A stretch of DNA of 64,000 bases, taken from assembly GCF_000182565.1 (NCBI RefSeq), contig NW_015971538.1, positions 837,736 to 901,735 of the forward strand, read 5' to 3'. This document shows, one piece after another, positions 28,701 to 35,700 of this stretch (the stretch's first letter is position 1; the number at the start of each line of letters is the position of its first letter). The position numbers were made by a program, and so were the translations under genes. The notes under the pieces are model-generated. The model was given only the letters and a program-made list of their open reading frames with translations, was not told the DNA's origin and did not search any database. Origin of the DNA: Spizellomyces punctatus DAOM BR117. Lineage: Eukaryota > Chytridiomycota > Chytridiomycetes > Spizellomycetales > Spizellomycetaceae.

Positions 28701-30649
28701 ATGGACAAACCTTCGTTTGCCAGCTCATTCTGGGTATGGGGAGAGCGTTTAATATTGCCATCTCGGGCCACTTTTATGTTGACGACATGAATTTGACTTG
28801 TAGGGCGATAATGATAAAGGGTTGGAGGTGTTGATGGGGCGAATGAGACAGGGGAAGCACGTTAGTGAAGAGGTGCATGCTATGCTAAAGGAGAGAGCGA
28901 CCATCGAAGAAGAGTATGGAAAAAGACTACATAAGCTTGCTAAAACCTTTAGTCCCAAGGAAGAGATTGGGTATGCAAGCACTGGCGACGTATACATGTT
29001 AAGGACTATAATTCATCATACATCCTCTGCTGAAGAACCCTGCGAGACTCGTTGGATATTGTGAAGAACGAGCTAGAGAAGAGCGCGAAGTCACATACTG
29101 ATCTAGCTCAGGAGATTCGCGTGAAACTGGAGAAACCACTGGGGGACTTTATTGGAACCCAAAGCGGAATACGAAAGAATGTAAGTCTAGTAACTTGAGC
29201 GATATGACGGTTCTATTGTAGAATTAATAAGGCATGTTGATGTTGCTTGCAGCACAACGCCATCGTCGAAAAGCATCAAAAAGCCAAGGCAGCTCAAGTA
29301 GCGGCCGTGATGAAGTCCAAAGAACGGTACGAGGCAAAATGCGCCGAGACAACGCAATTATCGCAGATAAGAGCTGATCCAGCGTCTAAGGAAGCGGAAA
29401 AGGTACTTGAGTATGCGGCGTTCTATAATACACGTGCGAGTAACACTCCATTTCAGATCAAAATGAAACTGCAAAAAGTCCAGTCACAGGCGAAACAGGC
29501 CGACGTAGATTACGTCGCAGGAGTGGAGAAGTTGACCGAAATCCATCGAAGATGGGTGGATGACTTTCGCACAGCTTGTACAGTAAGTTTAAACCACTTA
29601 CCCATTTTTTATTAACATGACGGAGGCGGCCGTGCTCATCCAAACTTCTTGCCGTTACAGGAATGCCAGAAGTTAGAGGAAGATCGATTTCACTTTCTAC
29701 GCGGGAATATCTGGAATTACGCTAACTTTATATCGGGCGTGTGCGTTTCGGACGATGAGGTGGGCTCGCTTAGATGTTTGGATATGCAGACGGAAGATCT
29801 TTGCGACTTAACGATCGTTTATACGTAGGCATGTGAGCGAGTGCGTGTATCGCTAGAGGCTTGCGATTTTGAAAAAGACCTTGCCTTATTCTTGGATCGG
29901 AATACGACCGGATCCGTTATCCCACGTAAGTTTTTCCTTCCGCTGTTCACGTTTTTTGGCCCGTTGTTAATTAGTTTTCAAATATCAGAACCCCTACAGT
30001 ACATCAACTATTACACCGGGACGCAAGAAAATTCTCTCTCGGGTAGGCGCAAGAGTGCAACTAGCAATGACCTGCCAGCGACCCTTCCGATGTACAATCC
30101 TTCGCAAGATGACTTGGGCAGCACCCACACTCTTGGTTCTGGACCTAGTGGCTACAATGACCCGACAACAACCCGAAGAGATAGTGCATCATCCAAAGGA
30201 TCCGCCGCATTTTCGGGGGCAGTTGGACCGCAGGTACTCAATGGGATGCCTCAACAGCAACAGCAACGAAGTGGATCCAATGCCCCGCCGGCGGGAGCGG
30301 ATGCAACGTTCCAATACGACCCCTATGACGTGCCAGAAAGCATGCCGGTTCTGTTTTCGGGTACGAAGGAACTGTACTTGGTTTGCCGTCTGGATTGTTA
30401 CTTATCCTTTGACAGTTCGAGTCCTATATGACTACCAAGCGCAGGCGCCAGAGGAGCTCACCATTGGCAAGGGCCAGTTGATTCCGGTAATCGCAACTCA
30501 TGATGATGGGTAAGTAACCGAACTTCTCTAATTTTGACCTTTTGGACTTATCATGCATGTGCTCTAGGTGGTGGGAAGGGCTGGGATCGGAAGGCGGACA
30601 AAGAAGAAAAGGCTTATTTCCAAGCAACTTCACAGAAACCGTCCGCTGA
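28701..30649 (+). CDS. F-BAR and SH3 domain protein (Cdc15/Imp2/Hof1 type)
   Basis: Membrane-bending scaffold likely acting in cytokinesis or endocytosis. The first exon MDKPSFASSFW (28701) joins GDNDKGLEVLMGRMRQGKHV, giving the F-BAR opening SFW-G-N-D-GL--L--RM-QGK. It continues MLKERATIEEEYGKRLHKLA, LGDFIGTQSGIRKN, KHQKAKAAQVAAVMKSKERY and NIWNYANFISGVCVSDDE. A Ser/Pro/Gln-rich linker (about 30040-30350) carries a short Q run and RR-S patches. The C-terminal SH3 is VRVLYDYQAQAPEELTIGKG ... DDGWWEGLGSEGGQRRKGLF, then PSNFTETVR with the stop at 30649. Domain order and motifs fit the Cdc15/PSTPIP group; I cannot separate Cdc15 from Imp2 or Hof1 orthology by eye. Confidence 0.87.
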
Positions 30650-30906
30650 TCTACTACTGGGGCCAAAAGACATACGACAATTTTGGAAGCGGTTTGGAAG
30701 CATTCACTCACGCAGCGCGTTCACTGAATGGACACTGCGTACTCTAGAGGAACGGATCATACATAGTCCGCACATTTGTATCTTTGACGTCGACAATTGT
30801 ACTGAGAACCATTTACTTGTGGTAATCATAAAAATATCGATATGTACATGATATGGTATTCGTTTGCCCTGCGAATACCTCCCTTGCGTTGTTGTTCAGT
30901 GTGCGT

Positions 30907-31817: not shown

Positions 31818-32668
31818 ATGAAGATCTTATCCAAATGGTTACTAGCCTATGTCTCCACACAGATTGATGCGACACCTACAACGCCGTCGGTAGCTCCGGT
31901 CCTTTCGGAGACTGCAGAAACTGACGTGAATTCCGCCGTAGCTTGGTCCACATTGCACCCGAAAAAGCGGGTTCAAGTGCGCAAGGTCAGCAACAACCAC
32001 GGACTTTACCGACGAGGTTGCCATTTTCTAAATACCATTAAGACAGATAACGTCACATAGTCCGGGGACGAATATCCCTCTTACTATGGAATTGAGCGAT
32101 GGGCAGTATTATATTGACAGCATGCTCACGAAAGAGTGTTTGGAACGATATGACCTGTAGGGCACAAATGCCTCGATTCGTGCTGCTACGGACCTTGTTG
32201 TTCAAACGCCTTAAATTCTTGCCCTAGTGCGCGAGCTGAGCTGGATACCCATTTGCCTCCAATCACCAGTCTGCGAGGGGCGATCATCATCGTCCAGAGT
32301 GCCCGCTTGAGATTATTGAAACCTCACCGATGCCGTCAGCTATTCAGCGTCGGTCTGGCGATCGATGATTTCACATTTATAGGCAATCACGGCACTGAAC
32401 CCGTTGACCAAACGTACCCTGTGGCAGAAGCACAAAAGGTGATGGCGAGTATATCTCACCTTATGTATCGGTACGCGGATTATGACTGCTCGGCCAAAGT
32501 TGTAAAACTAAATTGCATTCTAGCATAGGGGTGTTTAATGGTCGCCGCAGTATGCGTCCATCCACCGCCAACGTGCAGCACTCAGTCCCCGCGCGCGAGT
32601 TTGATCCTTCCGTCGATCTTACGTTTCTTGGTCAAATGGAGCTTGATATAATGTTAGATGATGATTAG
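31818..32668 (+). CDS. Predicted OB-fold protein resembling telomere protein TPP1/Tpz1
   Basis: Assembled here from four exons whose phases all agree: 31818-31985, 32047-32156, 32228-32470 and 32524-32668, giving about 221 residues. It begins MKILSKWLLAYVSTQI, resembling the N-terminal W-containing helix of TPP1 (PWIRELI). After a linker comes an OB-like series: KKRVQVRKITSH, IPLTMELSDGQYYIDSMLTK and ECLERYD, then SLRGAIIIVQSARLRLLKP and QLFSVGLAIDDFTFIGNHG. The LSDG-(Y/H)-(x)-CL/ML-T(R/K)E(A/C) strand and the later 'L-I-VDDFTFLG'-like strand occur in the same order in human TPP1. The C-terminus is acidic (QMELDIMLDDD). Alternative readings are another OB-fold protein or a different start (an in-frame ATG further upstream at about 31713). 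It is divergent from GET1. Confidence 0.55.
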
Positions 32669-33687: not shown

Positions 33688-35700
33688 CTACCGCCATTTA
33701 TTAATCTTTCTTTCCTCCGCGAAGCGGGATTGGACAAACTCAATAAACTCTGGAGAATAATGCTTCTCTAGCTCGTGTGGCAGGATTTTTTCATGCTTCT
33801 CTGCTTCGTGGCGTGTTAAACAGACGACGTTCTGGAAACTTGCGGGTTTGGTGACATCCCATCGAATGAGCTGAAGTTTGTCAAAGGTGCCGGAAAGTGC
33901 ACTCCTTCCACGCCATATCTGAGTTCAACAGCGGTTAGGCACAACCCTATAGCAGATTTCCCTTGAGCAGTGTTTTCCGTTCTTACCTCCTCAAAAATAT
34001 AGCCCACATCAGATACGTTAAACGGTATATTGGCACTGTATAGGACATAGTGATTAAAACGTTGCCAACGTCAAACTTCTAAATATCCTTACCTTGCGCC
34101 GAAACCATCCTTCTCCTTATTGACCAGATCTCTGTGTAACCGCATATAAGTTTTCTCCCGTAACTTAATGGCCAGAGGATTGGTAGGCCAACCGGCCAAC
34201 TCAGTAATGACATAAGATGCCATGCAATTGCCAAATAGTGCGGGGAGAGTTCCAAGAACTGTATGGAAAATATCGATAAGATCAGTCCTATGACTGCCCG
34301 AAAACTCATTCGTTCATACCAGGAAGAATCCTAAAGGCATCGTTCCCATTAGAAAGCAAACTTAGGCAGTGGTTCTCCCCACTGAAGGCACCTTACCGAA
34401 CACGAAAGTCTGGCAAAGCTGAGTACTCATCAGCTTCCTGCACTTTCTCCTCCTCCAAAGGTAGCAGTTTAACCGCACCAGGCTTCTCTGTAGAGTAAAC
34501 CACGGTCACTCCGCTTTCCACTCCTTTCAACTTTAGACCTCTTCTAGTAGCTCTAGCCAAGGGATCCTCTAGATGGATTGAGCTTGTCAGCCCGCAGTGC
34601 AATCAATGAGTTACCCTGCGTGAATATAGTCACCAAAGGTTTCGCTAATGTCCGCAATCTGTATACGTGATGGATCAGCCTTTGCTCCGGCACCCATAGA
34701 AGAGATTATCCGTATTTTGCTGTCCACACAATATTTAATCAGGTCCATCTTGGTATTGAGGTTATCAATACAATCTAGCCTTCGCGGGTTAACTGAGCAT
34801 GCTCCAGTAAATGATGACTCCTGGACCACAATTACCAAGAACATAATCCGGATTGCCGCTAAGCAGCTCCGGGGCAGCCGCAATATTGAAAAGCTCCATG
34901 CACGCATCTATTTTGGCGTGAGGGGCAATGTCGAGGAAATGCTTCTTCAGACATGTGCTCTTGGGCGTTCCAACATCGGCCTGCGTCGCTACAGCGTGAC
35001 GGTTCAAGCTCGAGAGTGTCACTTGGTCAAAATCGATCAGACGAAGATGCTGCAAGATGTTAGAGGTTGTACTATACAGCACAATACAACAGCCATGAAT
35101 TACCTCAACTCCAGATCGTAGAAGCATATGTGCCTATTAACATAAACGATTTACAAATTGAACATACTGCGCCAATGGAAACGCTATTCGTGTCATCGCT
35201 AATACTGGTCTAATGACTTACCGCATGGCTTCCTAGTTTTGCGTGATCAGTATAGGCTCTAGCACTGTACAAGACTCTTACATCGCTCACCTACGCCCCC
35301 TAATCCAACCACTATAACGAAAGACGATCGGATCTTTGCCACTCCCTGGTGCGCAAAAGATATTGTCAGAGCCATTGATGCTGGATCCACGGATATCCCA
35401 CAATGTCACCTCTTCCCCTAAAAATGCGTAATTGCGGGCGAGCTGCTCTCGTATCAGGCCTTCATCAGTGGTCAAAGGCTTCTTTGACGTGACTCCTCGG
35501 GCGATGTCTGTCGCTTCATCGAGGTGGTTTATGGAGTTTTGGATGGAGTTAGATATATCTCTCTTTATGCGTTTTATCCGAGCCCGTTTATTGAAGTGTT
35601 GTACGATAAATATTGAAGATGCTGTGAGAGCCGATGCTGCAATTGCCACAGCAAGAGTGTTTACAATGCTATCTCCTAGTGAGGCAGCTTTGAGTCCCAT
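33688..35700 (-). CDS. TCD1: tRNA threonylcarbamoyladenosine dehydratase (E1-like), membrane anchored
   Basis: Converts t6A37 to cyclic ct6A37 in tRNAs using ATP; in yeast the paralogues Tcd1/Tcd2 sit on the mitochondrial outer membrane. ATG 35700: MGLKAASLGDSIVNTLAVAI followed by AASALTASSIFIV is a single N-terminal anchor. The E1/ThiF fold follows: EQLARNYAFLGEE, VIVVGLGGVG-SHA-AHMLLR (nucleotide loop), LRLIDFDQVTLSSLNRHAVA, YVLDCIDNLNTKMDLIKYCV, RIISSMGAGAKADPSRIQIA and DPLARATRRGLK. The C-terminal module includes YVITELAGWPTNPLAIKLRE, SDVGYIFEE and ALSGTFDKLQLIRWD, then ERKINKWR at 33688. The SHA of the loop is encoded by an 11-nt exon (35222-35232). I cannot tell Tcd1 from Tcd2 by eye. 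Confidence 0.9.
35222..35232 (-). other. 11-nt microexon of TCD gene
   Basis: The sense sequence GAAGCCATGCG is bordered by AG upstream and GTAAG downstream. It joins the exon ending GGGGGCGTAG (donor GTGAGC) to the exon starting GCACATATG. Only with this exon does the frame read GLGGVGSHAAHMLLR, the E1 nucleotide-binding loop. Both flanking phases agree. Confidence 0.75.

Follow-up and report, generated by a model that had tools for sequence, protein, structure and literature searches.

We describe a four-exon gene of the chytrid Spizellomyces punctatus that encodes a member of the TPP1/Est3 family and is the sole member of this family that we detected in the genome, where its most likely role is that of a compact TPP1. 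TPP1 and Est3 help bring telomerase to chromosome ends in animals and yeasts, and the same genome contains profile matches for POT1, TERT, RAP1, CTC1, STN1, and TEN1 as well as TTAGGG arrays. The gene lies near the middle of the window, by which we mean the whole stretch of 64,000 nucleotides that was analyzed. Its assignment is based on a curated profile, a continuous ortholog in the same genus, and pairwise similarity that leans toward TPP1 over Est3.

Gene structure, ortholog, and neighborhood

Joining the open frames yields 666 coding bases, which correspond to 221 residues and a TAG stop codon, with intron phases that agree throughout (Table 1). The first-pass annotation of this DNA had drawn exactly this four-exon gene, and its model held in full, given that the coordinates were exact, the introns were GT-AG with agreeing phases, and a continuous ortholog could be matched to the product; every strand that it had quoted is present in the spliced translation. 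The ortholog (SpCBS45565_g02998, hereafter P0001) is a 227-residue protein of Spizellomyces sp. 'palustris' that is named a hypothetical protein, and it was the sole protein returned at E <= 10 from 123 candidates (E = 2.4e-128) when about 5.8 billion proteins were searched. A second search, with residues 46-150 of P0001 as the query, again returned P0001 alone from 19 candidates. Both searches covered proteins whose length was 0.55 to 1.75 times that of the query and that had several exact words in common with it, so that more distant or longer chytrid relatives may escape them. The genus Spizellomyces belongs to Chytridiomycota, which bears out the earlier proposal that the host is a zoosporic fungus.

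Aligned end to end, P0001 and the window protein are identical in 205 of 227 columns, and 6 of the other 22 columns are gaps. At all three splice joints P0001 has the same residues, with one I/L exchange right after the third. When the proteins were divided at segment borders of our own choice, identity was 94/97 in the OB core, 13/24 in the linker (6 columns gapped), and 26/27 in the C-terminal block, and this is the pattern of a protein under constraint. The P0001 linker is 6 residues longer, and both proteins match the same Pfam family. Within the lengths that the protein search covered, no entry came from the window species, which suggests that the gene may be absent from the annotation of that species. 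The same result is what could be cited for an artefact of exon joining with no real gene behind it; however, an independently predicted, continuous ortholog covers all of the joints and the Pfam match crosses three exons. We rejected this explanation, which the Spizellomyces ortholog makes untenable and to which we assign practically no probability. When P0001 was searched against the whole 24.0 Mb genome of the window species, all four matches fell within the TPP1-like gene, which appears to be single copy at the sensitivity of this search.

Table 1. Positions of the TPP1-like gene and of telomere genes in the same genome (positions without a contig label are those of the window)
Feature	Position	Strand	Description
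Exon 1	31818..31985	+	Start codon; Trp7 within the N-terminal stretch KILSKWLLAYV; loop; KRVQVRK as the first strand; P0001 residues 1-60 match here
Intron 1	31986..32046	+	61 bases, GT...AG
Exon 2	32047..32156	+	NIPLTMELSDGQYYIDSMLTKECLERYD (LSDG strand, TKE motif); region most similar to human TPP1
Intron 2	32157..32227	+	71 bases, GT...AG
Exon 3	32228..32470	+	RGAIIIVQSARLRLL, LFSVGLAIDDFTFIG, and AEAQKVMASISHLMY, the last taken as C-terminal helix
Intron 3	32471..32523	+	53 bases, GT...AG
Exon 4	32524..32668	+	Variable linker, conserved C-terminal block, stop codon
Constrained C-terminal block VPAREFDPSVDLTFLGQMELDIMLDDD	32585..32665	+	26/27 identical to ortholog; putative POT1-binding peptide
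STN1 (CST subunit)	38584 to ~39960	+	Approximate gene model
POT1	C6:522899-524509	minus	Nine-exon spliced model, 373 residues
TERT RNA-binding domain	C2:423098-423667		Over cut-off
RAP1 C-terminal domain (RAP1_C)	C1:85339-85584		Over cut-off
CTC1	C10:585468-588527		Over cut-off
TEN1	C15:291429-291794		Over cut-off

The first-pass annotation had placed the gene between GET1 and QCR8. The right-hand neighbor is indeed QCR8, which has the opposite orientation (UcrQ, E = 7.9e-18), but the GET1 label on the left attaches to one open frame with a sub-threshold CHD5 match (E = 0.0028; 17.9 bits against a cut-off of 29.3). Other features were seen in the surrounding DNA. On the far side of QCR8, an open frame at window positions 34611-34907 (-) has a ThiF (E1-like) match below the cut-off (E = 0.0002). 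Frames at window positions 30430-30650 (+) look by eye like an SH3 domain (VRVLYDYQAQAPEELTIGKGQL...GWWEGLGSE...GLFPSNF) at the end of the upstream gene, and the open frame at 29241-29615 has a Pfam match at the sub-threshold level only (RRM_10, E = 0.002).

Assignment to the TPP1/Est3 family

The spliced protein matches PF10341 (TPP1) with 30.4 bits against a cut-off of 26.5 (E = 4e-7), and the match runs from residue 4 to residue 154 over profile positions 1-135 of 158. P0001 reaches 29.3 bits with the same profile. By this curated profile, the window gene belongs to the TPP1/Est3 family, in agreement with the TPP1-family identity first proposed for it, which is supported above the curated cut-off in the window protein and in the ortholog alike. 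As controls, the human TPP1 OB domain scored 113.2 bits and Saccharomyces cerevisiae Est3 scored 167.8 bits; given that PF10341 holds both proteins, Pfam assigns the family and leaves the subtype undivided. The protein had also been described as so divergent that sequence searches often miss it. This was too pessimistic, since the spliced protein passes Pfam and the precomputed annotation of a database already puts PF10341 on the ortholog; a Pfam run on spliced genes would reveal the family member. PF10341 gave no match in the unspliced genome even though the gene is present there. NCBIfam returned no family for P0001, a PDB sequence search with the window protein returned no telomere protein (one chance match, to a muramidase, E = 1.2), and a PDB search with a two-sequence alignment returned no match.

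In the window protein, PF10341 is the only Pfam family to reach its cut-off, and TEBP_beta is the sole other match (E = 0.17, 12 bits; for P0001, E = 0.18, 11.9 bits). The latter match would fit a TEBP-beta-like protein, or another OB-fold accessory protein of single-stranded DNA that merely resembles TPP1. It falls far under its cut-off of 26.6 bits and is confined to residues 72-125, whereas the TPP1 match is above its own cut-off over most of the protein. A TEBP-beta identity was rejected on this comparison, and the wider reading strikes us as highly improbable. PMC9333443 describes the TEBP alpha-beta complex of ciliates as resembling Pot1-Tpz1 and POT1-TPP1 in structure.

Similarity to TPP1 and to Est3

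The main rival to a compact TPP1 is an Est3-like protein, which would be a small telomerase holoenzyme subunit with a single OB fold, able to dock on TERT but not to bind POT1. We compared the two subtypes by pairwise Smith-Waterman alignment with 2000 shuffles under BLOSUM62 and BLOSUM45, with one representative each of TPP1 and Est3. Under BLOSUM62, the window protein scored 59 against the human TPP1 OB domain, where the shuffle mean was 28.3 (z = 6.6; 0/2000 shuffles as high), and the ortholog gave z = 6.5 (0/2000). Under BLOSUM45, the values against human TPP1 were 5.4 (0/2000) for the window protein and 4.5 (4/2000) for the ortholog. Against Est3, z was 1.1 (268/2000) and 1.8 (115/2000) under BLOSUM62 and 2.2 (69/2000) and 3.9 (7/2000) under BLOSUM45 for the window protein and the ortholog, respectively. 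Est3 was thus below human TPP1 in all four paired tests, with the ortholog pair under BLOSUM45 nearly tied. Shuffle controls with POT1 and STN1 of the same genome gave z values of 1.2-1.5 and 0.1-2.5. The best stretch against human TPP1 is 41 residues long, with 13 identical, around LSDG...T(K/R)E, and the alignment with Est3, though weaker, stays colinear for about 135 residues, beginning at the N-terminal Trp.

Profiles separated the two subtypes less well. The profile-profile comparison to which the first-pass annotation had pointed lent the TPP1 reading little, as the hhalign probabilities for the two-sequence alignment were low: 4.5% with human TPP1 (E = 0.0091), 0.2% with Est3 (E = 0.34), and 2% with a profile of mammal TPP1 (E = 0.024). 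Scored with the mammal-TPP1-only profile, built from 120 returned proteins and 121 aligned stretches, the window protein, P0001, and Est3 reached 5.7, 5.2, and 4.5 bits, which is not discriminating. With the human TPP1 OB region as the query, a wider protein search kept 202 of 1159 candidates at E <= 1, and among the 120 listed there was no intermediate fungal relative; the readable names among these were all from mammals, and some entries were nameless. Among the human TEL-patch glutamates E168, E169, and E171, only E171 faces a glutamate of the chytrid protein in the alignments. Residues at the TEL-patch surface are also rewired in Schizosaccharomyces pombe and budding yeast, as stated in PMC13419711.

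Several observations fit an Est3-like protein. At 221 residues, with one domain and a short tail, the chytrid protein is nearer in size to Est3 (181 residues) than to human TPP1 (458 residues), Est3 is a high-scoring member of the same Pfam family, and the colinear alignment reaches its highest z with the ortholog. However, the pairwise scores favor TPP1, the chytrid genome contains POT1, and the P0001 genome search found no further family member to act as the shelterin TPP1. Budding yeast is not known to have POT1. On balance, we consider an Est3-like role unlikely and a compact TPP1 the probable one. The earlier label of "shelterin-type" can be kept in part: the presence of POT1 and the scores lean toward TPP1, but PF10341 accepts Est3 equally, so the label expresses a leaning only.

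Predicted fold and domain layout

AlphaFold2 gave a mean pLDDT of 34.2 for P0001 alone and 36.3 for P0001 with ten mammal TPP1 rows. The second half of the P0001 model has a strand-helix-strand-strand-helix order that agrees with an OB fold, at a confidence that is far too low (the mean of 34.2) for use. Given that the AlphaFold2 confidence was unusable, we infer the OB fold, at about residues 4-154, from family membership and do not claim it from structure. The layout read from the alignments is that of a compact protein, with a predicted OB region, a helix, a variable linker, and an apparently constrained C-terminus of 27 residues. The linker varies and the block that follows it does not, and with S. 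pombe Tpz1 as the model we read this block as a candidate POT1-binding peptide. In Tpz1, residues 185-212 are enough to bind the third OB fold of Pot1, and the human POT1-TPP1 contact is more extended owing to an inserted HJRL domain, as described in PMC9333443. The 47 residues after the helix contain one conserved block only, which leaves little room for a separate TIN2- or Poz1-binding segment, and a bridge to the proteins of double-stranded telomere DNA may be missing, or the same tail may provide it.

Telomere genes in the same genome

At least three contigs (C8, C10, and C14) start with TTAGGG arrays, and four-repeat TTAGGG has 157 overlapping matches genome-wide, compared to 0 for the reversed control. 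Four TTAGGG repeats also occur at C3:649061-649084, inside the contig and far from its ends. The POT1 model, whose exon joints were picked by eye and include one AAG acceptor, scored 52.4 bits with PF02765 (cut-off 29) and 45.7 bits with PF16686 (cut-off 27.2); unspliced, PF16686 gave 18 bits, below the cut-off. Human POT1 in the PDB matches the chytrid protein with E = 1.1e-7. A search for the third OB fold of POT1, the expected docking site, gave no significant match: 87 PDB sequences came up at E <= 10, headed by a glutamine amidotransferase (E = 0.035) and by thermonucleases, and the one POT1 chain among them (7cui_A, the S. pombe OB3) reached only E = 1.3. PMC9119445 reports three-OB-fold POT1 proteins from Chytridiomycota.

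For STN1, the Stn1 profile gave 23.4 bits (cut-off 21.5) with the first two exons joined and 15 bits unspliced, and human STN1 in the PDB matches with E = 1.6e-18. STN1 and the TPP1-like gene share a strand and are 5.9 kb apart. A rough calculation for 24 Mb puts the probability of such closeness at about 0.05% for a single given gene, and at about 0.3% for any of the six other telomere genes found. The RAP1 open frame had no Pfam domain besides Rap1_C at E <= 0.1. The TINF2_N (TIN2), TRF, and TEN_TERT profiles gave no match in the genome read exon by exon, as in the control genomes save for one bacterium below the cut-off (TINF2_N); these are weak negatives, for TIN2 and TRF because PF10341 itself misses its gene in the unspliced genome. 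Taken by sequence, the telomere gene set of this chytrid, which goes with TTAGGG repeats, is much like that of animals.

Discussion

Our preferred reading is that this gene encodes the compact TPP1 of a chytrid. We infer that POT1 would sit on the TTAGGG 3' overhang, that the conserved C-terminal peptide would bind POT1, and that the OB domain together with the helix that follows it would dock on TERT via a diverged surface resembling the TEL patch. Telomerase could then be brought to the chromosome end through the order POT1, TPP1, and TERT. We also considered a bolder version, which we hold to be possible though rather doubtful, in which the protein is a present-day minimal TPP1 made up solely of one OB fold and a POT1-binding peptide. 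Such a protein would stand near the ancestor of the long shelterin TPP1 proteins and of Est3, and in this chytrid POT1-TPP1 would recruit CST as well as telomerase, with no TIN2-type bridge to double-stranded telomere DNA.

The gene adds an early-branching fungus to the TPP1/Est3 family, which has been reported as poorly conserved in fungi, and together with POT1, RAP1, CTC1, STN1, and TEN1 it offers an early-branching sample of fungal TPP1 evolution. The open-access full texts, so far as their content was available (subscription journals mostly lie outside this scope), contained no description of a chytrid TPP1 that we could find. Spizellomyces is a culturable saprobe. With so small a protein, whether the ancestor was a shelterin or a telomerase subunit could be addressed by simple binding assays.

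Among the known systems, budding yeast Est3 resembles the chytrid protein in its Pfam family, its compact single domain, and its colinear alignment, but is less similar to it in pairwise comparison than TPP1 is, and the chytrid protein differs in coexisting with POT1. Metazoan TPP1 (ACD) has in common with it an N-terminal Trp stretch, an (L/V)SDG strand, T(K/R)E, a G-x5-Q strand, and a D-x-F strand end. The chytrid protein differs from the metazoan one in being less than half as long (221 compared to 458 residues in 7qxa_O), in having neither the long Ser/Pro-rich region nor an evident TIN2-binding end, in the absence of most TEL-patch glutamates, and in its low similarity beyond the best stretch. 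Fission yeast Tpz1, compared here by description, differs in carrying a Ccq1-binding segment at residues 421-485 and a Poz1-binding segment at residues 486-508 (PMC4199508), and the chytrid protein is too short for both. It is nonetheless a fungal TPP1 ortholog with an N-terminal OB fold followed by a short Pot1-binding segment (PMC9333443), which is the arrangement that we propose for the chytrid protein.
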